A stretch of DNA of 64,000 nucleotides from Prorocentrum cordatum (taxonomy: Eukaryota > Sar > Dinophyceae > Prorocentrales > Prorocentraceae). A model generated the notes under the pieces. It did not search any database. It was not told the DNA's origin and saw only the letters and a list, made by a program, of their open reading frames with translations. Each line of letters begins with the position of its first letter. Position 1 is the first letter of the stretch. The stretch covers positions 275,001 to 339,000 of the forward strand of contig CAUYUJ010015293.1 in NCBI GenBank assembly GCA_963575745.1, in the 5' to 3' direction. Positions 20,841 to 35,480 of this stretch are shown here, piece after piece. The position numbers and the translations under genes are program-made.

Positions 20841-20953
20841 TCCAAAACTCATCATCTTCATCATCATCATCGTCCCCGTAGCCTTCTTGGCTACAGCCCT
20901 GCTTTCGAAGATTTCCTTTCAAAGGAACTGCGCAGCGCCTACTGCACACCTTA

Positions 20954-23058
20954 ATGCCAGGACATGCTGATAGTTCTCGGTCTGGCGGCGTTGCTCCTGA
21001 CCCTGCTGCATTGAACAGCGGTGCTCCTCAGCCTGCGACAGGGAACAGCGTTGCTCCTCAGCGTGCTGCATTGAGCGGTCCTCTGCAAACGCTCGTCGAG
21101 CACGCGAAGCAATTCGGCCGGATACCGAAGCGAAATAAAGGAACGTCCGAACAAGAAGGGGCCGAAAACAAGTTGGCCAAACGTTTCTCGGACCATCGCG
21201 ACCGCATCCCCAAAGACATTTTGCATGAACTGCGGGCCCTGGGCTGCGCTGATCAGCAGACGGAGACCGAGGAGCTCAAGCGGAAGCAGAAAACCGAGGA
21301 GCTCATGCAGCAAAAGCGAGACAAGACCGAGGAGCTCATGCAGCGAGTGCGAGACCTCGGCCGCCACCCGAAGGAGCACGCCGGGCGCAGCCTCGCAGAG
21401 CGGCAGCTGGCAGAGAAAGTCCGGAAAGCACGGAAGGCCAACCAGTTCTCCCCGGAGCAGGGCGCCGAGCTCCAGGCCTTCAAGCAAGCGGAGAGCGAAG
21501 CCGCAACAAAGACTCGCATCGCGGAGGCGGAGGGCCTTCCAAACCCCATGGAAGGGTTCGCTGAGGAGGCGCAGAACAGGATCGACCAGGACCTGCTGAT
21601 GCTCGAGAGCGGCATCCGGACCAAGGCAATCCTGCGGCGCCTTGCCGCCTACAAGGAGATTGTGTCCAGCCTCTCTGCGCAACGCACGGAATTCGCGCAG
21701 CGATGCGCGGAGCGGGTGCGCAAGGCGTCGGCCGCCCCCGCGGGGAAGAGCTGCTACGTTCCCGGCGGCGAGGTGGAGGGGGGCCAGCTGCGCGTCTTCT
21801 CCGACCGCCCCGTCATGACGGGGCCGCTCGTGTGCCAGCTCTGCGACTGCGACTTTCTTACAGAGGAAGACTTTGCGCGGCGCAAGCAGCAGGGCCACGC
21901 GGGCGACGCGGAATACCGCAAACGGGTGCTGTTCCTGATGGCGGAGGCTGGCTGCAGGCCGATAGCCGCCCAGGAAAAGAGGCTCATGGTGCAGAATTTT
22001 GCTCACTTCCAGCAGTTCTGTCACCCGGGCAGCGAGGGCAACCGCTTCTCGGGCAACGAGGCAGCACACCGATGCGAGGCAGCCTGCGTAGTCTGCGCGC
22101 AGAAAGATTACCTCGAGCACCGCCACAAACTGAGCCTGTTTGGCGCAGTGCTGGAGGACCGTGTATCCGAGCACTGCGCGGGCCTTGCAAGCGACCAGGA
22201 CGACGTGTCCGAGGGCGAGGCGAATGCGCGACCCGCGCGGACCCTGGTGAAGCACCGCGGGGTCTACTACTTGCAGTCCCAGGAGCTCGTGCAGAAGCTC
22301 CTGGACGTGGACAGGTACAGGCAGCGGTGGCCTTTGATCCCGTACGAACAGCTGCATGCGTCCAGCGTTCAGCATCCGGAGCACCCAGAGCGGCGGTGGC
22401 TGCTGCACTCCCGTAGTCCCTGTGGTAGCACCGCTGGAAGCAACGGCGAGCACATGCGGTGCTTCTCAGCCTGCTGCCGACAGGCCCGGCGGAGCTTCTC
22501 AGCCTGCAGACGAGAGGCCTCCGTGCGCAGGGGTGGGAGATGCCAACGCGTTGGTGTGGGTTTGTTAAGTGCCTCACTGACATGTGCGCCAAGAAACCGA
22601 AGACGCCGTTAGACGCCCTGGTCAACGACAACTGGATCGGCCGGGAGCTCATGCACGTCCGCGGCGCTTCGAAGGCTACAAAGATGCTGGCGCCCCTTGG
22701 CCGATGCTGTTGGAGGCAAGTCCGTCTCGGCAAGGGCGCCCCGGATGTCCAGCAGAAAGGCATCTCGGGCAACGCCGTCCTCTTCGCCCAGTCCACGGCG
22801 CAAATCCCGTCCATGGAGCTGCGCCCGGCGCCAAGCGCGCTCGTGGACTCTCTGAACGTCGTCTTCTCGGGCGCCGCGCACAATCTCAGCCAGGCGCGCT
22901 GGGCAACAGTCAAGCGCGCCGAGTACACGCGCATCGTGAGGGAGCGCAAGCAGCAGTGCGCAACCTTTTCCGAGGTGTCCGTCCGGGAGGACGTCGCCCC
23001 GACACGGCTGCCGGAGGACGGCGTGCCAGACCACATCCGGGTCTGTCTGCAACCAGTG
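20954..23058 (+). pseudogene. Helitron-type ORF, N-terminal part (DUF6570-like), broken
   Basis: ATG at 20954 opens a long frame with strong third-position GC bias. Residues about 45-175 hold two copies of a basic repeat (GRIPKRN..LAKRF.. and GRHPKEH..LAEKV..). A Cys pair LVCQLCDCDF follows, then further Cys/His pairs, to about 22400. Two +1 shifts (about 22395-22415 and 22564-22570) lead to a frame with KTPLDALVNDNWIGREL, QQKGISGNAVLFAQST and a following SLNVVFSG, the pattern I know from the DUF6570 region before Helitron helicase-like domains. The frame is cut at 23058 by the 9.76-kb insertion and appears to resume at 32823. No Rep or helicase motifs are seen, so it is a remnant. The family name rests on remembered motif order, not a search. 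Confidence 0.7.
22451..22510 (+). repeat. GGTGCTTCTCAGCCTGC minisatellite, left flank
   Basis: Two copies of a 17-bp unit coding GASQPA. Diverged copies open the ORF (20996-21075), and at least five more lie in the right flank (32983-33275). The shared unit ties both flanks of the 9.76-kb insertion to one ORF. Confidence 0.75.
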
Positions 23059-23107
23059 CCCTGAGCATCCGGCACCCACAGAAAAGAAAGGATAAGTTAT
23101 GTTTAAG
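23059..23107 (+). repeat. Left terminal inverted repeat
   Basis: 49 bp beginning CCCTGAGCATCCGGCACCC and ending GGATAAGTTATGTTTAAG. Three mismatches to the right end. Confidence 0.85.
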
Positions 23108-23260
23108 TGCTGCACCTTAACTTAAAATGAACTTACCTTAGAACGTACTTAAGTTACTTAGTTCGTACCTCAACTTAGACTTAGAACAAACTTAGAATTG
23201 CACTTAAAACGCACTTAGTTTGCACTTAGTTTGCACTTATTTTTTGGCCTGGTGTTGGGA
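23108..23260. repeat. Left subterminal AACTTA-rich region
   Basis: At least eight copies of CTTA(A/G)TT or its inverse AACTTA within 150 bp, in both orientations. Such clustered motifs are typical transposase-binding regions, but that role here is inference. Confidence 0.65.
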
Positions 23261-23521
23261 TGTTGTTTCGCAGTTAACGTATGCGGGCACAGCCGCGAAG
23301 TTTGAGCTACGTCATGCCACGTCTGCTAATCAGCGTTATCTTTCCGATGTTTTTCGGCCCCTCGGTTTCTGGATTTCTGGTTGAAGGGCTTCGTTGGCCC
23401 ATGGGCCCCTAGGATCCTGATGGGTCCCAGGGGCGCGCGCCTGGACTCCTTGGGTCTTGGATGCCTGGGTCCCTGTGCCCTGGTGGGAGAGCGAGGAGGA
23501 GGAGGAGGAGGAGGAGGAGGA

Positions 23522-23543
23522 GCCATTGCCGTTTTGGCTCAAG
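23522..23543 (+). other. DinoSL relic before gene A
   Basis: 22 bp matching the dinoflagellate spliced leader (core GTAGCCATTTTGGCTCAAG) with three differences. The 3' part GCCGTTTTGGCTCAAG is intact except A to G at leader position 10. Relics like this arise when a trans-spliced mRNA is copied back into the genome. Confidence 0.85.
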
Positions 23544-23604
23544 CCATTCAGAGGGCTTCTCCATCTGACGAGAAAGGATCCACTTTTTGTGGACGCGGCT
23601 TCTG

Positions 23605-24939
23605 ATGAAGCGCCCAGCTGCGGCCAAGGCGATGCCCGCGGCGAAGCTCCGCAGGCCAGCGGCTCGGCACGAGCAGGACAAACACGAGGAGGAGGACGAC
23701 GCCGACGAGGAGCCTCTGGTGAGCATCGCCGCCACGCGCGGCAAGGGCAATAACACCCTCAAGGACGACGAGGACGCAGAGGACGGAGCAGCTGATTCCC
23801 GCACGACGACTCGTGCCCAGAGGCACACCTTCGCGAAGAATCGCCACCTCTTCGATCAGGCCTTGGTGGCCCAGTTCGACAAGCTGATGGACACGGCCAA
23901 CAAGACCGTCGGCAAGCAGGCGCAGATCAACCAGATCATCAACAGCTGCGTCACGAGGAAGGCTGCTGGCGGTGTGGGTGTCTTGATCAAGACACGCTCG
24001 GTGAAACGCTTCCAGCGCAGCATGATGCGCGACGAGAACAAAGAGACGGCGCACGGCCTTGGATGGTGGAGTCTCGTCGGGACGAAGTTCGGCGGCTCCG
24101 AGTCCTTGGCGCAGAAAGCGCTCGACGCAGGGGAGGTCTACCAGGCAGAGGACACGGGGCTCTACTACCAGGAGTCCCACACCATCGAGCGGACGCGAGT
24201 CCAGGAGAAGGGCTACAAGGGCGAGGAGGACACGGGCGGCCTGCTCTCGAGCGACGAGTTCGCGCAGGCGTTGCGCGGCCAGGAGGAGCAGCTCACCGCG
24301 GAGCCGCTCGGCGACTGGTTCAAGCAGCGCCAGAAGGGGGTCCCCAAGAAGATCGCGGGGGCGCAGGCGGGCGACGGCGACTTCACGGTCATGCAGGACT
24401 CCTACTCCTACTCGTACTCCTAGTGTTATTCCAACCCTACTGATACTCCTACTCTTATTCATGCTCCTACCCCCCCTCCTCCCACTCATAATCCTGAGAG
24501 GGAGTGGGAGGAGTGGGGGTAGGAGTATGAGTAGGAGTGGGAAGGTGCATGGGGTATGAGTAGGAGTGGGAGTGGGTGCTACCCGCAGGAGAGCTTCGAC
24601 GCGGTCTCGAGGGCGACTCTGGCCCTGCGCCGCTTGGGCACCAAGATGATGGCCGCCGAGGGCAACTCCGAGACCACGAAGCTGATGTCTGGGAGGGCCA
24701 TCAGCTTGTGCAAGGCCGCGGCGGGGCCTAGCGAGGCCATCGAGTCCCTCCTGGTGGCCCAGGGCGAGGCCAAGCGCAACATCTCGAAGGCGGACGTGGC
24801 GGAGGCTCTCAAAGCCATGAGCGCCCCGTACAAGCAGATGGTCGAGCTCTTCAATGAGATCGTGATCCAGGTGAAGTCCGCGGCCAAGGGCAGCAAGACC
24901 GCCGACGCGGCCAAGGGCTTGAAGCCGATCAAGTTTTAG
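23605..24939 (+). CDS. Gene A: dinoflagellate-type protein, 380 residues, one intron
   Basis: Coding exons 23605-24396 and 24589-24939, 380 codons. The first ATG after the DinoSL relic (62 nt away) gives a Lys/Pro/Ala-rich start MKRPAAAKAMPAAKLRRP, as often seen in dinoflagellate nuclear proteins. A long acidic and basic linker follows, then a folded-looking region from about residue 80 (QINQIINSC, HGLGWWSLVGTKFGG, GLYYQES) and, in exon 2, helical Ala/Lys-rich sequence to the stop. Third positions are almost all G or C in both exons, and the frame is intact, so it may still be expressed. No enzymatic motif was recognised. It resembles a multicopy dinoflagellate family I cannot name. Genes B and C lie downstream on the same strand in the same element. 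Confidence 0.75.
24397..24588 (+). other. Intron of gene A (GA-AG, 192 nt) with fold-back
   Basis: Phase-0 intron between ATG CAG and GAG AGC. GCAGGA spans both junctions (24393-24398 and 24585-24590). The two halves are inverted (CCTACTCCTACTC... against ...GAGTAGGAGTGGGAG). Reading through gives a stop at 24421. Because 192 is a multiple of 3, only the stop and the loss of codon bias reveal it. Confidence 0.75.
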
Positions 24940-25586
24940 GTCAGCGCTGAGGGCGCTTCGAAGAGAATGAGAAGGATAGAAGGATGAGGTTTTCGTTTCA
25001 AAAAATGTTTGGGTGCGTTTGGCGCAACCAGTGGGGCCGAGTCGATTTTGGCCCCCAGGGGGCTGATTAAGGATTGAACCGAGCGAAACTACGTTTCGAT
25101 TGAGCCGAGTGCTCGACGCGGCGCACGGCGCCCCGTGCGCAGGACGGCGCACGGCGCCCCGCGCGCAGGAGGCCGAGGCAGAACGGTTCGCCTCGTGCTA
25201 CTCCTTTTTTCTTTCCTCTCAACCCCTGCTACTTATCCCCTCCTGACCCTGATTCTCGCACTCGTTCTGATCGCCCTCTCCCCGTCCTGCCGCTCGCCCC
25301 ATCTCGGGGCCCCGCTGGCTGCCTGCCGTTCCCGCTCGGCGCGATTGCCGCGCCGCCTGGCCTCGCCCTCGCCTCGGGCAACAGAGCCCCGACCGAGCCC
25401 GCGAGAAGCGAGCGAGCCCAGCGATGGGCCCAGCAGAAAACATATGTAAAATCTTGTGCGCTGAAACAACTGGCACCTGAAGGGAGCCCTGGGGCCCTGA
25501 AATCACGTGGCCCATGGGGCCCCGACAAGGGAACCTGGGGGCCACAAAGGAATCCTGGTGACCATGTCGCAGATATGTTGTAGATA
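24940..25586. other. Spacer between genes A and B
   Basis: 3' flank of gene A. Holds a short duplication (ACGGCGCACGGCGCCCCG at about 25107 and 25143) and a GC-rich stretch without a convincing frame. Confidence 0.45.
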
Positions 25587-25686
25587 TGTTGTAGATTCGT
25601 TGTAGATTTTGAAATCTACAACGAATCTACAACGCGATGGTGTAGATGCTTCGTAAATTTCAAAACCTACACCGGATCTACACCGC
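25587..25686. repeat. Two tandem near-palindromes between genes A and B
   Basis: The first (25588-25633) has perfect 22-nt arms GTTGTAGATTCGTTGTAGAT.. and inverse. The second (25638-25686) is a diverged form (GGTGTAGATGCTTCG...CCGGATCTACACC). The period is 51, as in the array at 27809. Confidence 0.9.
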
Positions 25687-25821
25687 TCATCCTTAAACAG
25701 CTGTCTGTAAGGTTAGTCTCACGTGCGTTCAGAGTGTCACAGTTGTTCAGGGTCTGTCTGAAAGTCTGAATCGAAAGAGCGGGGCGGGGTGACAAGGCCA
25801 ACATTCGCACCCCTCCTTATC

Positions 25822-25842
25822 ATCGTAGCCGTTTTGGCTCAG
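25822..25842 (+). other. DinoSL relic before gene B
   Basis: ATCGTAGCCGTTTTGGCTCAG matches the leader with two substitutions (including A to G at position 10) and loss of one A near the 3' end. Located 32 nt before the ATG of gene B. Confidence 0.85.
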
Positions 25843-25874
25843 CTGGCTTCCTTTGACGAGCCCTGAACTTTACA

Positions 25875-27426
25875 ATGGGATCGAAACGCCCTCGCCAGGT
25901 TGCGAACCCAGATGTTGCAGAATCCGACTACGTGTCTTGCTTGAAAGATTTCGCTGGCGGCAGATCCCTCGAGTCCGTGCTGCAGCCTTTGAACACAGAT
26001 ATCAATAGGTTGACACCTGTTCATGTGGTCAGATCGTATAAGCTGTTGGAGTCGTTGATGAAAAAAGGAGTGTGGAATGGAGTTATATGGACGTCTCGGT
26101 TCATGATAGCTACAAAGGCGGTGTGCAGTGACGGAAGTGAGCTCACTGCGACGAACATCACCGATCACGTCAGGAATTGCTTCAGCATGGTTAGGCAGAT
26201 CAAGTTGGACGAAACTTCGAGCGACGGTAAAACCCGTTCCAGGAAGTCGTCGCCATTCCTGCGGCAGTGCGGGGCCGCCGACAGAATCGCGATCGACGCC
26301 CTCGTCGGAATGATGAAGCTCACGCAGCTGAGCGATGTGCCCATCCAGACGCCCGATCCCAAGAAGCCTGTGGATCCGCCGCTATCAGGTTCGGCGCCGC
26401 CAATGTCCCCGACCCCGCGCGGCGCGGCTGTATCAGACAGCGGTTCGATGCGTGACTTGTTCAAGACAGGCTTGCGACAGGTCGAGGATATGGAGCGTGA
26501 CTTGGCCGAGTGTTCAAGCTTGGCGTCGCTGGCGACAGTGCCGTCTACCATAGCTTACCCAGGGCACGCGGCGAAGTTCGATGAAGATGGGTTTCCACAG
26601 ATGTCACCGAGATCTGACATATCTGTGGTATCTCTGCCATCGTGTCGCTCTGTTGCACCGTCTCGTTCGATGAGCATGCGAGACTTCATCGACGGCCACG
26701 AGATTCTCGACGCCCCCGATGTTGGCCCAGATAAAACATCGAAGCCCGACAAATTCGATGAGCCACCAGACCCTTGCACGCAGCGCCGCAGGAAGGAGAT
26801 TCTTCGCGTGCGCAAGGAGGCCAAGGCGACGCAGTCTATTACAGACCGCGCCAAGAAGCTTACGGCAAGAAAAAAACAACCATCAAGACAACGGGCGACC
26901 CCCCCGAGGATCGCAAGCTCATCAATCCGAAGTTGGCGAAGACAAAGGACGGGCCTTGTAAACGTGAGAGAGTTCTGGCAGAGGGAAGAGGGTGAAAGGA
27001 ATCCCCGCCCTCCGATCCCCCCTCCCCCCCCTAAAAAAACAAAACGAAACGCAGCCCCCACCGCCGCGACGGCGATGGGGGGGGGGGGGAAGGGGGTGGT
27101 GATGCGGAAGCCGAGGCCTTCTTCACCCTGCTCCCTCAGCCCGACACTCTCACCCCCCGCCCCAAAACAAACTTCGCTCGAAGAGGTAAAATGAGGAGGA
27201 GGAGGACGAGAGGGACTAGATTGAGCAATTCCATAAGGACGGTCGCTTTGAGATCACCGCGAAGGGTCTCCAGACGGGGAAGAGGATCCACGTGACTACG
27301 GTGCTGAAATCAAAATACGGGGCGTCGGCTGAAGCCGACATGGAAGCAGTTGTGAAACACATACAGGAGACGCAATGTTCGAAGGCCGAGGCTACTGCAT
27401 TTCGAAACAGCCTCCGTTCCGCCTGA
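25875..27426 (+). pseudogene. Gene B: unknown protein, about 434 codons, one frameshift, one intron
   Basis: ATG at 25875 starts MGSKRPRQVANPDVAESDYV. The first 150 residues look globular (ESVLQPLNTDINRLTPVHVV, SLMKKGVWNGVIWTSRFMIA). A Ser/Pro-rich linker and a Lys/Arg-rich region follow. At the A7 run 26870-26876 the coding frame moves by one base: downstream the protein-like frame reads TIKTTGDPPEDRKLINPKLA, which suggests one A is missing (a true lesion or a homopolymer error). A probable intron 26972-27219 leads in phase to an exon ending TGA at 27426 that contains HKDGRFEITAKGLQTGKRIH. Base composition is less GC-rich than gene A. Function not recognised. It is framed by palindrome arrays at 25587 and 27809. 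Confidence 0.6.
26972..27219 (+). other. Probable intron of gene B (248 nt)
   Basis: In-frame GT at 26972 and acceptor CTAG ending at 27219 restore the frame with phase 0. The interval is poly-C/poly-A and GGA-rich with stops. The donor could also be a GA or GT 8-24 nt away, so the 5' edge is uncertain. Confidence 0.5.
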
Positions 27427-27808
27427 GATCGAGTTGCTTACCGCACTAGCTGGCGCCCGCTCGTGCAGGGGTTGCTGGGAGGCGCTTGCGCGTGCTAGGG
27501 GTTATGCGAAGCATTGCTGCGTACTACATCCGATGCTGTAGTGACTAGATACCGCGCCAAAGTGGAGCAAGGGAGAATGGTAAAAATGTATGTTTCATGT
27601 TATGTGTATGTAGCTCTTGATTCCAATTATGTTCATTCCTCATAAGTTTATAAGAAAGGTTATCACGCAAGTTATGTGATTTACGTCGTCGCTAACATAT
27701 TTCACGTCACGGCGTTACGTTGCGTCGTCGATTGTGCAACGTTCGGTTACTTGCTTGCGCGATGGATTGCAGGGAAGTTACAGTGTTGTGAGAATGTGTG
27801 AAATCGTA
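27427..27808. other. 3' flank of gene B
   Basis: No frame. AT-rich from 27560 onward, unlike most of the window. Runs into the palindrome array. Confidence 0.5.
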
Positions 27809-27958
27809 TGTTGTAGATTCGTTGTAGATTTTGAAATCTACAACGAATCTACAACATGATGTTGTAGATTCGTTGTAGATTCCGAAATCTACAACGAATC
27901 TACAACATCATGTTGTAGATTCGTTGTAGATTTCAAAATCTACAACGAATCTACAACA
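27809..27958. repeat. Three tandem 48-bp near-perfect palindromes between genes B and C
   Basis: Palindromes at 27809-27856, 27860-27907 and 27911-27958, period 51, with 3-nt spacers TGA and TCA. Each has perfect arms of 22-23 nt around a 2-4 nt centre, and each arm is itself a direct repeat of TTGTAGATT. Only the centre bases differ between copies. The same palindrome occurs at 25587. Confidence 0.95.
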
Positions 27959-28494
27959 TAGATGTTTCACGTTTTGAACACTTTTTCAACATTTCCATTT
28001 CAGTCCGTTATTTTTGTAATTGATTTTCATCAGTAGATTTTTTTTCGAATCATCGTTCGTAAATTATTAACGCGTGTTTCCCCTCCGTAAACAAATTCGA
28101 TCGCGCCCCGTCAGCGACCTCCACAGGGGCCTCGTGGGAAGCGAACATTTTTGGATCGGATGTGGTATAATTTCATAGGATTTATTCCACGTTTATACCA
28201 CCCACAATGTTTACGCGAACATGAGGGGTTTCAAGATTGTATATTTCTTATGAAATTGAGACCCTCTTGGGGCCCTCCTGGCCCCCTGCGGTCTACATCA
28301 TCGATTTCGAAGTAACCGAACCCCGAAAGCTACGTTGTTGATCTTTTTTTTTTTTGACAGATATCTCAAACCATTTGAAAAACATACCCTTTGATACATC
28401 ATACCATTTGGACAGATACCTCAAACCAGTTGTTGATATTTTGACAGATAACCTTTTTTACGGCGTGTTCCAACACATCTTTCGGAACACATTT

Positions 28495-28533
<39 letters not shown>

Positions 28534-29245
28534 AATATTTATTTAGGGTTCTCGTCGCGAAGCAACCGTCCCTACGAACATCCCAGGACACCGCCCCTAC
28601 AGAATCCATGCAACACTGATGTATTCGGAGCCTTTTCAAAAGACACACTGGGGGAAAAAAAAAAACAAGATTCTAAAACAAAAATACGAGGGCGGGCCCG
28701 AAACGATTTGACATCCACCGACACGCCAGATACTTCCAGCAAACACTGATTGCACCTCGAGGGCGTTCTTGATTGGCAGACTGGCAACCTGCATAGCATG
28801 GAAAGGCATATGCATTACCCACGCAACGGACACGGCCTCGCCACTCGCCCCTTGGGTTCGACGTCTGGGGGAGGGAGCGGCGCCCGACGCGGGCCCGACA
28901 GTGATCGTTGCCGCGCGAGGATCGAGGATCGAGGATCGCCCCTTGATTTTCCAGACTTGCCCCTGATGGTGCTTTCTGATATTTTTGGGTCCTGAAATCC
29001 CTGGGCGGCCCCTGGGTCGCGGGAGGTTTTCGGCGGGTCCTCGGGGCGCCCTTTGGCGGAGCCCCGCGGCGCGCCGCGCCCGCTTGCCGTCGAGAGCGGG
29101 CGGGAGGGGAGGGGCTGTGCAGGCGCTCGATTTGGCTCGGTCGTTCAACAGGCTCGTGCCGGGGCCAAGCAAACGCAACATCCATAAGCATCGCACGCCC
29201 GACCCCCTTCGAATCGGCAACTCCATCCATTGCAGCATCACTGGG
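27959..29245. other. Spacer between genes B and C
   Basis: AT-rich to about 28560, including a T-run (28497-28526) and near-duplicate GACAGATAYCTCAAACCA motifs at 28358 and 28413. GC-rich from 28680 with no supported frame. Confidence 0.5.
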
Positions 29246-29267
29246 TCAGTAGCCGTTTTGGCTCACG
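29246..29267 (+). other. DinoSL relic before gene C
   Basis: TCAGTAGCCGTTTTGGCTCACG against the leader: three substitutions, again including A to G at position 10. 54 nt before the gene C start. Confidence 0.85.
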
Positions 29268-29321
29268 CATTGCGCGCGCAATCTTGTGACACTCCGCCTC
29301 CATATAGATACCGTTCACGCG

Positions 29322-31235
29322 ATGAAAAGATTGGGCGGTGGTAGACAGCAGCGCAAAAGGAAACTCGAAGAAATTGAGATATCCAGTAGTGCACAGCCCA
29401 GCGTCGATCCTGGGGCAGCAGGCAAGGCCGCCCTTTTAGATTCAGACCTCGCTAGGAAGTTGGTCATTAAGTGGGCCTGGGGGTTTATGAGCGCCGTTGA
29501 GATTCAGTCAATAGCGGCACGGGCGCACACCGACATGGTCGCACTTTGCAAAAGACTTGGTGTTCCAGAAAAGGCCGACGAAGCTGTGCCATCGTCTATT
29601 CGGCATCTTGCATCATTGGGCCATTGGGGCAAATACAAAGGTAATGTGTCCAGGGAGCTTCGCAATTGGATTGGCGAGCCCGCGTGCCCCCCTGCTCGCA
29701 TATTCCACTCCTGGGTGAGAGTTCACAAACCCAGGGGGGCCGCAGTGTCTATTCGGCAGAGTGAGGTGAAGATTCTGGATGCGCACATGACATTCTCGTA
29801 CCTTTTCAGATATGACAGAGTGCGGTTCAACGAAAAGTTCCTGGGCCCAGACGGATCAGAAGAGACCTTGCACGCGTTCTGGAGTGAGGTAGTTCGCCGA
29901 CGGGACCCGCGGATACAGAATCACCCTATGTGCCTCAAGCCAGGTTGGACTAGAAGGTGCGTCCCGCTCGCCATTCACGGCGACGCCGTGCCAGTGGTTC
30001 GGGTGGGGGAGCCTGGGTCGGAGAGCTTGGAATGCATATCTATTCAATCTCTTCTAGCTAAGGGACCGACGTTGAAGGTCAAGTGTTTGTTGTGCTCGAT
30101 GTTCGAGAACAACAAGGTTGCCAGCATCCCAGGCGTCCAAGACACGACAGAGACAATGTGGCAACACATCTGCTGGTCTTTGAAGGCGTTGTATGATGGG
30201 CGGTTTCCTGCAACAGATTGGAAGGATGCCCCGCGGGGCCCGCTCTCCAGCGAAGCAACCATTGCAGGGCAACACTTGTGTTTGAGGAGGAGGCGTTTTT
30301 CGGAGTGATCTGGTCCATAAAGGGAGATTTGGAATGGTACTTCAAGGGGTTAGGCCTCGAGAATTACAATCGGACTGACCCGTGCGAGTTCTGCCCGTGC
30401 GACAGAGCGCTGCCGAAAGCGATGTGGCCGACAAATTTCTCCCCCGCGGCAGCTTGGAAGGCGAGATTGCACACGGCGGCAGAATGGAGAGCTGGCAAGC
30501 CATCGCTTCACGCATTGTTCGCAGTGTTTCCATTTGTGCGACGAGTTACACATCCTGCACCTTGGAGTTTTACAGTATTATCTTGGCAGCATTCTGTGGT
30601 TGCTGACATATGATTGCCTCGGCGGAACACCGACCGAGAATTTCGAGCTGGTGTGGAAAGTGATACTAGATGAGTACAGAGGTTCTCCGAGCGGCACAGA
30701 GTTCACAAAAATGAGAATAACATCTTTCATCGACCCTAGCAAATGGAACGAAGCCTACCCAAGGTTAAAAGGGAAGGGCTGTGAGGTGAAGTCTCTTATT
30801 GTGCCTCTCCATATCATTTGGGGAAAGCTGAAAAAAGCAGGCCACTTTTACGATCAGGTTGCCAACTCGCTCGATGCAATGACTAAAATACAGTTCATTA
30901 TAGATGATTACAGCAATGACGCGTTCATTCCAGATAATGAAGCGGCCTCCTGCTTGTCTGAGACTGATAAGTTCTGTCGGGTGTATTGTTGGCTCACGAA
31001 CGCGAGCAAGGCTCGCGACCAGATGTTGTTCACTCCAGCGCCAAAACTACATTGGATGTGGCACATGAGCTACAGAGCAAAGTACTTGAGCGTCCGCAGG
31101 GGCGCAACGTTCATTGATGAGGATTTCGTTAAGCACATGAAAAAAATCGGTGGCAAATCAGTGGCAGGCACAACCATGCACATGGTGCCGAATGTGGTTG
31201 TCGAGAAGTATCGGTGGGGCATCAGCCTCGAGTGA
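29322..31235 (+). pseudogene. Gene C: large dinoflagellate-family protein, 637 codons, two compensating frameshifts
   Basis: ATG at 29322 (MKRLGGGRQQRKRKLEE). The frame runs to about 30275, continues one base out of phase (EEEAFFGVIWSIKGDLEWYF, DPCEFCPCDRAL) and returns to the first frame near 30527 for CDELHILHLGVLQYYLGSIL through KYRWGISLE and TGA at 31235. The net length change is zero, so the original was 637 codons and intronless. Landmarks: CxxCxC in the middle, then C-D-x-x-H-x-x-H-L-G, then LKGKGCEVKSL, near the C-terminus WMWHMSYRAKYL. I associate this order with a high-copy dinoflagellate family of unknown, perhaps transposase-like function; this is recall, not a search. The shifts could be real decay or read errors. 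Lower GC than gene A. Confidence 0.65.
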
Positions 31236-31241
31236 TAGCGC

Positions 31242-31264
31242 GTGCCCAGCACTTGGTTGGGCAC
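31242..31264 (+). terminator. Stem-loop just after gene C stop
   Basis: GTGCCCA, 9-nt loop, TGGGCAC: a perfect 7-bp stem starting 7 nt after the TGA. A possible 3'-end signal; function is inference. Confidence 0.35.
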
Positions 31265-31274
31265 GAGAAAACAA

Positions 31275-31400
31275 CAGACATCATCGTCACCATCATAATC
31301 ATCGTCATCAGCATCATCATCATCATCATTATAATCATCATCATATTAATAAGAATCATCATCATCATCGTCACCACCATCATCATCGCCACCATCATGC
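31275..31400. repeat. (ATC)n microsatellite
   Basis: CATCAT/CACCATCATCAT runs of about 125 bp. Confidence 0.85.
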
Positions 31401-32417
31401 CCCCCCCTCCGTGGCCCTGTCGATCGACGAGGGCGCCGCGGCAGGACAGCCGCCGCCCGCGCGACCCAGACGGGGCGGGGGGATGAGGAGGAGGTGGAAG
31501 AGAGGCAAGGGCGGCGGATAATACGAGCGCAAGGGGACGTGGGACGGGAGGGGGTGGATGACACGGATGAGGAAGGGGGGCGGAGGAAGGGCGACGGAGG
31601 AGGACCAGCGTGAGCGTTTTCGATCAAGACCCTGAACAGCTTGTTGTCGGCCGTGGTCCTGGGGCCGCCTGGGCCTTCGGGGGCCGAGCCTCCGTCCTGG
31701 CTGCGTTTGGGGGTCTTCTGTTTGCTTTATTTTCAATGGTTTTAGGTTTTTTGTTTATTTTTTTTTTGTTGTTGACGCCCTCTGGGGGGCGTCCAGTGTG
31801 GAAAACACACACGACAATAAATAATGATGTGATCAATTTTCTGTTGAACTGATTTTCCGATTCTGGTTTGCTGTCTCTTCGTCCTGAGTCCCCCCTTCTC
31901 TCACTATTCGCACGGCTCGCGCCGACTCCGCCAGCCGATGTCCCCGCGCGGTTCGCGTCCGCGGCACTGGGCGCTCATGGGGGCCCACATTGGGAGGGGG
32001 GGGGGCCTTGAGGCCCAAAGACGACTCCACGCGGGCATCCACAATAAAAAACGAGATGGCTTGTGGTATGCATTCGTGGGTTTTGGTTGGGCTCGGCTGG
32101 GGCAGTCCTGGGGCTTTCCTGAGCCGTCGCGTTCTTTCCTGAGGGCCTCTTGGGCCGTACCCTGCGGGCCCCTTGGTTGTTCCCCAGGGACATGCCCGAA
32201 ATTTCCTGGTCTCGATTCAGGCGTCAGCGATGCCTGCCCTCTGCTAGGCGGCCAGAGACAGCTCATGGGGGGCTCCGCAATGCCCCAAGATTGCCCCGAG
32301 AGAGCAACGAGAGGGGCCCAAGGAGGAGGAGGAGGAGTAGGAGGAGGAGAGGAGGAGGATTACTGAATTTATGGATCGCCAAACACTGCAGCCTTCAATC
32401 GGGAAGCTGCCTTGAAG
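31401..32417. other. 3' part of the 9.76-kb element, no gene
   Basis: G-rich and GGA-rich patches (31480-31600, 32310-32360), a T-rich patch (31735-31770), and no frame with codon bias. Confidence 0.45.
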
Positions 32418-32771
32418 GAGAGCGTTCGGCAACCGCGGAAAACGACGGATAAGTTACGTTTAAGAAGCTATGGTAAGTTCAAATTAAGTTAAGTGATTTT
32501 CTCCCCCCCACAACGAATGTAGATACGTTCAAACTAAGATACGTGCAACAGAACAGATATTTCTGATTACACTCATCCATGTATCGAAAATTGCGCGGTG
32601 TTTCCAACAGCTGGTGGGCCTCGTATTGGATCGTCGCACGTTTCTTGCCTTAGGCCGAAATTTAGCATGTACTTAAAATGCCCTGCCCTGTTGCACTTAA
32701 CTTAGTTTGAACTTACATACCTTAGTTTTGCTGGCGGGTTCACCTTAGTTTCTTAGAACTTAACATAGTTT
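32418..32771. repeat. Right subterminal region with an inner TIR-like end
   Basis: GGATAAGTTACGTTTAAG at 32447-32464 matches the left terminus at 17 of 18 bases in direct orientation, and the 28 bases ending in GGATAAGTT share 23 positions with the terminus. The rest is AACTTA-rich. 32418-32820 therefore also looks like a 400-bp fold-back element on its own. Confidence 0.65.
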
Positions 32772-32820
32772 CTTACACTTAACTTATCCTTTGTTTTCTG
32801 TGGGTGCCGGATGCTCAGGG
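32772..32820 (-). repeat. Right terminal inverted repeat
   Basis: Inverse of 23059-23107 with three mismatches. Ends GGATGCTCAGGG at 32820, followed by the TG duplication. Confidence 0.85.
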
Positions 32821-32822
32821 TG

Positions 32823-33818: not shown

Positions 33819-34569
33819 CATCACACTAAATCCATTCATGGGAGTGCCTGTTTTGGAGCTACACTCATTGATGCAAGTGTGTCGTTTGAGGCTCAACCCG
33901 TTGATAGCAGTGTCTCGTTTGGAATCACATCCGTTGATAGCAGTGTCTTGTTTAGACCTCAATGCATTTATACAAAGATCTCATTTGGAGATACCGTTAT
34001 CGAAAGCAGTGTTTCTACTGCTACTACCACTGCTCCCATCACTCCTACTCGTTCACTCCACACACTACAACTACTACTTCACTGTTACCACTACTACCAT
34101 CACTACTACTTCTACTGCTACTACTACTGTTACTATTACTGCTGCTGCTGCTGCTGTTGCTGCTGCTAGTGTAGCTATTGCTACTGCAACTACTGGCAGT
34201 GCCACTGCGACTGCCGCTGATGTTGCCACTGCGACTGCCACTGCGAATCCGAATGCGACTGCGAGAACACCAGAATTCTACAACAGCACACTTACATGAA
34301 TACCACAGGCAATGTTTCCAGCTATGCTTCTACACATCGCTGTTAGGTTGCTTTGCCTGGATAATTCTACGCTCCCCGACTATCCCCCCCCACCACACAC
34401 TGGAAGTGGAGGTCCAATCGGGGCCCTCGGGTCGGGTTGCGGTGGGCCCGGTGGGCGGTGCCCGACGGCCCCGCGGGGCCCGGGGAGGGCCCCCCACTGA
34501 GGTCGAGCGTGGCGCAGACAAGCCGCCCGTCGCCACTGTTCCGTTGCCTGCCTCGAGAGGGGGGTCTGA
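33819..34569. other. Degenerate triplet repeats, no gene
   Basis: Several TCGTTTGGA-type repeats (33880-34000), then ACT/GCT triplets to about 34260. No coding signal beyond that. Confidence 0.5.
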
Positions 34570-34705
34570 GGAGGAGGAGGAGGAGGAGGAGGAGGAGGCG
34601 GAGGAGCAGGAGGAGCAGGAGGAGGAGGAGGAGGAGGAGGAGGAGCAGGAGGAGGAGAAGGAGGAGGAGGAGGAGGAGGAGGAGGGAGAGGAGGAGGAGG
34701 AGGCG
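34570..34705. repeat. (GGA)n microsatellite
   Basis: About 135 bp of GGA with GCA interruptions. Confidence 0.9.
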
Positions 34706-34712
34706 CGGACAG

Positions 34713-34920
34713 CTTGCGCGCCACTGCCCGCGCAGCCGAGCCCGTTGCTGCGCTGCGCCGCCCGCTTGGCGCCCGCCCGCCTCGGGGAGGAGCCGCTGCT
34801 CGGCCTCGGCGTCGTCGGGGGCGCCCGGCGGCTGCGCCCCTTCCGGGCTGTCGGCTCCCGCGGCGTCGGCGCTGCTCGGGGGCGCCGGCTGCCCCGTCGA
34901 GGCCCACCAGGCGCTCAGAC
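34713..34920 (-). CDS. Candidate exon, Ala/Gly/Gln-rich
   Basis: On the minus strand an ATCGCAG acceptor precedes a frame (CTGAGCGCCTGG...) with mostly G or C third positions and a mixed acidic, polar composition (QPAPPSSADAAGADSPEGAQ, EAEQRLLPEAGG). The plus strand is also open with GC bias but gives an Arg/Leu/Gly-rich, less natural peptide. The left edge merges into the GGA tract. No partner exon known. Confidence 0.33.
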
Positions 34921-35480
34921 CTGCGATTCGGGACTCGAGCAAGAGGAGGAGGAGGAGGAGGAGGAGGAGGAGGAGGAGTGCCTGGCGTCTCGCGGCGGCG
35001 GCCCCCGCGACACGCTGCTGCGAGGCCACGGACCGTGCAAAACCTCTGGGGCCAAGGGGTATAATGAGTGCCTGGGCGACCCAAGATCGCTGGAGCCACG
35101 CCTCTCGACAGCGCGCAAATCACAGCCGGCGGGCGGGCCGGGGAAGGCCCGGGACACTGACGCCGCTCGGGGGCCGGGACGTGGTCGGCGTGTCGCACCG
35201 AGGCGTGGTGGGCAATCACCAGCGGCGCGACCCGCGGATCAAGAGTTCCTGACCGTAGCCAGCGTCGAGCTCATCCATACCCGTAAGCTTGGCAAGCCCA
35301 CTGCGATGAGACACATGTTCAAGGGTGCGCCCTCAGAAGCTGGGCTTGCGATCGGGGCCGAGATGTGGTGCTGCCAATCTGGGGATACAGGCGCATGCTT
35401 CAGGCTGGTGAGGACCTGGCGGCTCGGGGACTGACGCCCAGCTCGTGGTGGTCACCTTGGCTAGACGCAATGAGTGGCCA

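Follow-up and report, generated by a model that had tools for sequence, protein, structure and literature searches.

A probable cut-and-paste DNA transposon family with three genes and a RAG1-like transposase in the dinoflagellate Prorocentrum cordatum

The window analysed here is a stretch of 64,000 nucleotides from the dinoflagellate Prorocentrum cordatum (assembly GCA_963575745.1, contig CAUYUJ010015293.1, positions 275,001 to 339,000 of the forward strand), with a GC content of 60.2%. It contains a block with inverted ends that holds three genes, here called A, B and C. A preliminary description of the window, made from the sequence alone, proposed that these genes travel together as cargo or machinery of a large DNA transposon that had inserted into a Helitron-type open reading frame (ORF). 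The locus therefore raises the question of whether the block moves as one unit, by what machinery, and how it relates to known transposons. We conclude, with a probability of about 0.93, that P. cordatum has an autonomous family of cut-and-paste DNA transposons, of which the block is one copy. The proposed joint travel of the three genes is supported by dispersed copies whose ends are paired, by their 2-bp duplications, by empty sites at two insertions and by a gene order that a diverged subfamily shares. The coordinates of the features are given in Table 1.

The ends of the block are well defined. The terminal inverted repeats (TIRs) described at 23059 and 32820 match at 46 of 49 positions on recomputation, and the first 19 bases of the tip have two matches in the window at up to three mismatches, both at the ends of the block (0.04 expected). 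The subterminal zones, described as rich in AACTTA, contain ACTTA or TAAGT at 58 (left) and 26 (right) per kb; the density is only 0.3–0.4 per kb in the element interior and in 10 kb of either flank. The single orientation of A, B and C and the TG on both sides were also as described, and the status of the TG as a 2-bp target-site duplication comes from the family comparison below.

The left 200 bp of the element were used to search the organism's own assembly of 4.13 Gb; the resulting counts are lower bounds, and elements consisting only of tips could escape this query. Of the 33 matches, 16 are left ends at 97–100% identity (including that of the window) and two are left ends at 81–83%; the other 15 are short and cover the tip only. 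Fourteen of the 16 left ends have an inverted right tip on the same contig, 9,656 to 11,451 bp away, within the 5–20 kb in which the preliminary description suggested looking for paired ends. The remaining two (C1208 and C20706) adjoin runs of N, as does a lone right tip (C1237). With the window copy and 18 further copies or parts the set amounts to 19, of which 17 belong to subfamily 1 and two, C15100 (11,458 bp) and C14461 (11,726 bp), to subfamily 2. Genes A, B and C are present in unchanged order in subfamily 2, and most non-coding DNA is no longer alignable between the subfamilies. A third family is represented by C4106 and C16831; no tip was found in the 2.2 kb downstream of gene C in each, so the TIR and the duplication are established for two subfamilies only. 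These two sequences are 99.9% alike across the 2.2 kb and may be alleles. Searches of viral contigs with the tip pattern and with P0001, a homologue of gene C, gave no match, nor did a search of genome contigs with alignment A2.

Sixteen copies have both ends. A perfect 2-bp direct repeat is present at the flanks of 15 of these, and a 3-bp repeat in none. As a control the flank comparison was slid by 1–10 bases, which gave matches in only 0–3 of the 16. Two copies, C19654 and C1626, have common flanks and count as one place, leaving perfect duplications at 14 of 15 places. The duplicated dinucleotides are varied (TG, AG, CT, CA, AA, TC, GA, CG and GC). For an empty-site test, the joined flanks of all 16 copies were compared with the flanking sequences fetched, and seven gave matches that span the junction. 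Two insertions have clean empty sites: over 120 ungapped columns, the joined flanks of C21194 and C9424 align at 98.3% and 99.2%, respectively, with uninterrupted satellite units on the same contig. The joined flanks of C17680 match at 94.4%, with a 5-base gap off the junction. Paired inverted tips, a constant duplication and empty sites are together consistent with what is generally expected of a cut-and-paste transposon with TIRs. The C21194 and C9424 copies lie in a common satellite in opposite orientations, and their insertion points within the unit differ by only a few bases, which possibly reflects a target preference.

Gene C is the transposase, as judged from the RAG1-like fold modelled for a homologue and the residue fingerprint D-D-C(2)C-H(3)H-E. 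In the homologue P0001 the fingerprint consists of D232, D347, C366–C369, H595–H599 and E618, with 19 residues from the second Asp to the first Cys, and the window copy has the same motifs in its separate pieces. The structure was modelled from P0001 rather than from the window gene. The model is confident, and its best matches among solved structures are RAG1, the recombinase of antibody genes, and then Transib. These matches extend over most of the protein, although only 7–10% of the residues are identical to those of the RAG and Transib chains. CACTA-type transposases are not among the matches, which leaves room for an unlisted family; to our knowledge no CACTA-type transposase structure has been solved. 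Gene C matches no Pfam family. A protein search found 19 relatives, for which Pfam gave nothing beyond two matches at chance level (best E 0.09); a gene C profile against PDB sequences gave one match (E 0.04), which was no transposase. The gene C tree comprises the element family and ten of the 19 relatives. In the window the protein matches change frame (29337–30281, 30269–30538 and 30540–31232), so that this copy, as read, would be unable to make the full transposase; the frame is intact in two other copies. When the gene C protein of C9424 was compared with the genome, 69 of 2,782 first-look candidates were scored and gave 73 matches, with identities down to 34% and many open frames of about 645–668 amino acids at 35–64%. 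The family of transposases seems to be a large one in P. cordatum. Several of the open-frame families have two or three near-identical members on different contigs (C4106 and C16831 are such a pair), which could reflect recent movement or alleles that were assembled separately. P0001 itself, at 57% to C9424 the closest outside relative, was found in a transcriptome labelled Pyramimonas, which is a green alga; this could mean contamination or a transfer between algae.

The CMCT clade includes EnSpm/CACTA, Mirage, Chapaev, Transib, Plavaka, ESTA and Lanisha as well as RAG1, and has the fingerprint D, D, C(2)C, H(3-4)H, E (PMC12730594). The element resembles this clade in the fingerprint of gene C, the RAG1-like fold, the TIRs and the short duplication. 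It differs in lacking a Pfam family, in its tips (CCCTGA..TCAGGG), in its varied 2-bp duplication and in its two extra genes. On fingerprint and fold the element probably belongs to this RAG1/Transib/CMC (CMCT) clade. EnSpm/CACTA elements have CAC..GTG tips and a 3-bp duplication, whereas the tips here are CCC..GGG (two copies begin CCT). Transib, RAG1 and ProtoRAG provide the best solved-structure matches to the homologue model, and RAG1 has the same 19-residue spacing. The duplication made by Transib and RAG is 5 bp, whereas that of the element is 2 bp and never reaches 3 bp in the 16 copies. The element tips are unlike recombination signals, and no RAG2-like gene was recognised. Plavaka and ESTA are members of the clade with 2-bp duplications (PMC12730594). 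The duplication of Plavaka (2 bp in A, 2–3 bp in B) fits the element and its tips (TGT..ACA or CATCA..TGATG) do not, and ESTA duplicates TA, which is absent among the 15 perfect pairs found here. The fingerprint is thus present, and of the four groups of the clade that were compared (EnSpm/CACTA, Transib/RAG, ESTA and Plavaka) none fits in both tips and duplication, so the element is filed as a new lineage within CMCT, pending a tree. The literature on dinoflagellate DNA transposons, leader relics, RAG1/Transib, introners and target duplications yielded no description of the element, closed journals and Repbase being outside its scope. There is an earlier dinoflagellate trace from Alexandrium, where RepeatMasker matched 119 bp to an EnSpm element (PMC3229502).

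Gene A already has a public record, under the label 'unnamed protein product', and a protein search found relatives in P. cordatum only. Its structure model has a predicted local distance difference test (pLDDT) score of 39. The start of the gene (23605–23655) is KRPAAAKAMPAAKLRRP, which resembles the pattern of a bipartite nuclear localisation signal. The coding sequence is interrupted by a stretch with a GA donor, an AG acceptor, GCAGGA on both borders and strong inverted repeats. Damage to the window copy was considered as the cause and rejected, as the P. cordatum protein P0020 reads across the stretch and its tblastn match is split at this site in all 19 copies, including subfamily 2. The split pieces are less tidy in C3769, C15166, C19654 and C1626. 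The inverted repeats at the ends and the direct repeats at the borders suggest an introner-like intron, though one whose position is fixed; border repeats, inverted repeats and a GA donor are shared with introners (PMC7789003, PMC10666404). Gene B has a frame of 382 amino acids in several other copies, which differ in the 3' part. A search with gene B found no relatives, the query having the window copy's own 3' reading. One copy, C15166, has about 1.8 kb of additional DNA close to the 3' portion of gene B.

Each of the three genes is preceded by a sequence resembling the dinoflagellate spliced leader, DCCGTAGCCATTTTGGCTCAAG, genomic relics of which mark genes returned from messenger RNA (mRNA) (PMC12014239, PMC6616646). 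The three best leader matches of the window directly precede A, B and C, and the only other match within 5 edits is at 20876, at the start of the Helitron-type ORF of the left flank. The exact core CCnTTTTGGCTCA precedes gene A in all 17 subfamily-1 copies, gene B in 15 of them and gene C in 11 (two of the misses at gene C are copies with long runs of N). The three best matches in subfamily 2 (3, 4 and 5 mismatches; the next has 8) also precede A, B and C. Among other related transposases, a leader match with up to 6 edits lies upstream of gene C at 20 of 20 loci, with none on the other strand; these loci form 10 sequence groups and were picked for a match beginning near the protein start. Without gaps, 15 of the 20 have 3–6 mismatches. 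All three leader relics of subfamily 1 (in the window at 23523, 25823 and 29247) share an A-to-G change from the canonical leader, CCGTTTTGG for CCATTTTGG, for which a common source, an edited mRNA or later homogenisation are possible explanations.

As a control, HSP70 loci were examined, and 11 of 16 (15 sequence groups) have a leader match, two of them exact, against 1 of 16 on the other strand; HSP70 is a single kind of gene, and does not give a genome-wide rate of relics. Because HSP70 loci carry relics too, the motif is no private mark of the transposon, and that proposal was rejected. The transposon genes would instead appear to share in the mRNA recycling known for dinoflagellates. Their occurrence at each gene of a DNA transposon, in one subfamily as in the other, is still worth explaining. 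In dinoflagellate retrogenes a leader relic stands at the 5' end of the mRNA, behind a new leader (PMC12014239). The element resembles them in having relic-like DNA before each gene; unlike in retrogenes and introners, these features are inside a DNA transposon, whose movement needs no RNA step.

Three other explanations were weighed. The ends might be unrelated miniature inverted-repeat transposable elements (MITEs) that flank ordinary chromosomal genes, and the inner degenerate tip, which lies some 400 bp inside the right end, does give the look of a 400-bp foldback. That inner copy is, however, at the same place in all 15 subfamily-1 right ends read (and in neither of the two of subfamily 2), the outer tips pair with each other at 43–47 of 49 positions in the 14 paired subfamily-1 copies, and these copies have a common interior that is 92–98% identical in aligned pieces. 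All 16 close left ends, found by a search that may miss elements sharing only the tips, continue into the element interior, 14 to the other end and two for at least 3.8 and at least 5.4 kb, whereas the preliminary description would have been undone by ends occurring mainly as isolated 200–400-bp MITEs around unrelated DNA. The paired copies and their shared duplications refute this explanation for the family, and its chance for the block is negligible. A different possibility is that gene C alone is the machinery and that A and B are captured host genes. The base composition of gene A is unlike that of B and C, and the searches found relatives of A in one species and none of B, against the 19 of gene C. 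Gene A is nevertheless present in 19 of 19 copies, gene B persists in the diverged subfamily (43% identity between subfamilies over 357 columns) and the gene order is constant. Between subfamilies, the ratio of nonsynonymous to synonymous substitution rates (dN/dS) is 0.34–0.38 for A, 0.30–0.31 for B and 0.13–0.18 for C. On these ratios A and B resemble parts of the machinery more than cargo picked up by chance, which makes capture improbable, and the simplest reading of the sequences is that all three genes would serve the element.

The leader-like sequences could, in turn, be working parts under selection, serving for instance as an invariant acceptor or as a 5' leader, and not relics of reverse transcription. 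Their presence before all three genes in both subfamilies, where most non-coding DNA cannot be aligned, agrees with this, as does their constancy upstream of gene C in the related loci. The relics at HSP70, as expected from mRNA recycling in dinoflagellates (PMC12014239, PMC6616646), and the lack of the acceptor AG in several of the leader-like sequences speak against it, and we regard a working role as the less probable explanation. A bolder idea is that the element represents a new CMCT lineage at the level of a superfamily, very abundant in P. cordatum and moving as DNA, whose genes are repeatedly rewritten through their own trans-spliced mRNA. We consider this doubtful; if it were true, a relic would be kept at each gene even where the surrounding DNA has been replaced beyond alignment.

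Several observations weigh against an autonomous three-gene transposon. Genes A and B have no recognised domain and reach no Pfam cut-off. The GC content at third codon positions is 0.886 in the first part of gene A and 0.59–0.66 in B and C. The synonymous divergence (dS) between subfamilies is high (0.85–1.73), which makes the dN/dS values rough, and broken frames inflate some of them. Within subfamily 1 dN/dS is not low (0.38–0.69 in nine comparisons), and within subfamily 2 it is 1.72 for A, undefined for B (no change) and 0.98 for C. The transposase gene of the window copy is frame-broken, and at least one stop or frame change is present in 13 of the 15 subfamily-1 copies with a readable gene C. 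The C14461 copy has GG and GC at its flanks and no perfect duplication. Nine of the 16 junctions have no empty site in the flanks fetched, the best matches for C13922, C13977, C4958 and C15100 are gapped repeat matches at 76–86% that prove little, and the C17680 match departs from the inserted site by a single base within the duplication. The leader match of C11436 is weak, with 8 mismatches ungapped.

The claim that the insertion interrupted a Helitron-type ORF stands in part. The left flank encodes a DUF6570 domain, which we take to belong to Helitron-type proteins, and this ORF starts behind a leader relic. The minisatellite core CTTCTCAGCCTGC occurs six times exactly in the window, always on the plus strand, twice in the left flank and four times in the right, which favours one interrupted unit. 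The arithmetic of a frame restored on deletion is correct (GTG, then GGC from 32823), and a random insertion keeps the frame in one of three cases. The right flank is not confirmed as Helitron coding: none of 15 ORFs selected from it reached a Pfam cut-off, a Glu-rich ORF (34175–35431) has seven weak matches below the cut-off (best E 0.0003), and the ORF running on from the right junction is largely minisatellite and simple repeat. Insertion into a restorable Helitron frame is thus half supported. Elsewhere in the element, the 51-bp palindromic array at 27807–27966 has one or two units fewer in C9424, C13977, C18459 and C15166, and an Rfam scan found no family at gathering scores.

Table 1. 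Features of the transposon copy and its left flank in the window.
Feature	Position	Strand	Basis or remark
DUF6570 of interrupted host ORF, left flank	22594..22950	+	Pfam, E 1.9e-9
Left target-site duplication TG	23057..23058	.	2 bp, flank comparison across family
Whole transposon copy	23059..32820	+	9,762 bp; paired ends and genome-wide family
Left TIR, starts CCCTGAGCATCCGGCACCC	23059..23107	+	46/49 identical to right arm
Left subterminal zone, ACTTA/TAAGT-rich	23108..23243	.	density counted across 23059–23300
Spliced-leader-like 21-mer upstream of gene A	23523..23543	+	3 mismatches to CCGTAGCCATTTTGGCTCAAG
Gene A, first coding part	23605..24396	+	match to P0020 (P. cordatum, 95%)
Putative gene A intron, introner-like	24397..24588	+	192 bp; P0020 match split here
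Gene A, second coding part	24589..24939	+	match to P0020
Palindromic 51-bp unit array, A–B spacer	25585..25682	.	
Spliced-leader-like stretch upstream of gene B	25823..25843	+	
Gene B, open frame as read in window copy	25875..27194	+	
Palindromic 51-bp unit array, B–C spacer	27807..27966	.	about 3 units
Spliced-leader-like 21-mer upstream of gene C	29247..29267	+	
Gene C, predicted DDE transposase, about 640 amino acids	29322..31235	+	two frame breaks in window copy
First catalytic Asp (HGDAVPV)	29982..29984	+	
Second catalytic Asp (KGDLEW)	30326..30328	+	
C(2)C zinc motif	30383..30394	+	
H(3)H zinc motif	31050..31064	+	
Catalytic Glu (DEDFV)	31119..31121	+	
Right subterminal zone, ACTTA/TAAGT-rich	32400..32771	.	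density counted across 32400–32822
Inner degenerate terminal-repeat copy	32420..32496	+	about 400 bp inside right end
Right TIR	32772..32820	-	partner of 23059–23107
Right target-site duplication TG	32821..32822	.	2 bp, flank comparison across family

For the autonomous cut-and-paste family that we prefer, the following course of events can be proposed. The transposase would bind the tips and the subterminal repeats, and its D-D-E centre, held by the C(2)C and H(3)H zinc sites, would do the cutting. The ends would then be joined to the target strands with a 2-bp stagger. A and B may be accessory nuclear proteins, perhaps with a DNA-binding or regulatory role, and the window copy would depend on transposase from another copy. 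The present form of each gene would once have gone through a trans-spliced mRNA, as seems common in the P. cordatum genome.

A dinoflagellate family of transposases with a RAG1 fold may extend the range over which CMCT transposons are known, and an element with three genes opens the question of what its accessory genes do. Since gene A is already in public records, annotations of dinoflagellate genomes may include unnamed transposons like this one among the host genes. The leader relics make the exchange of sequence between a DNA transposon and its own complementary DNA a testable idea in dinoflagellates.

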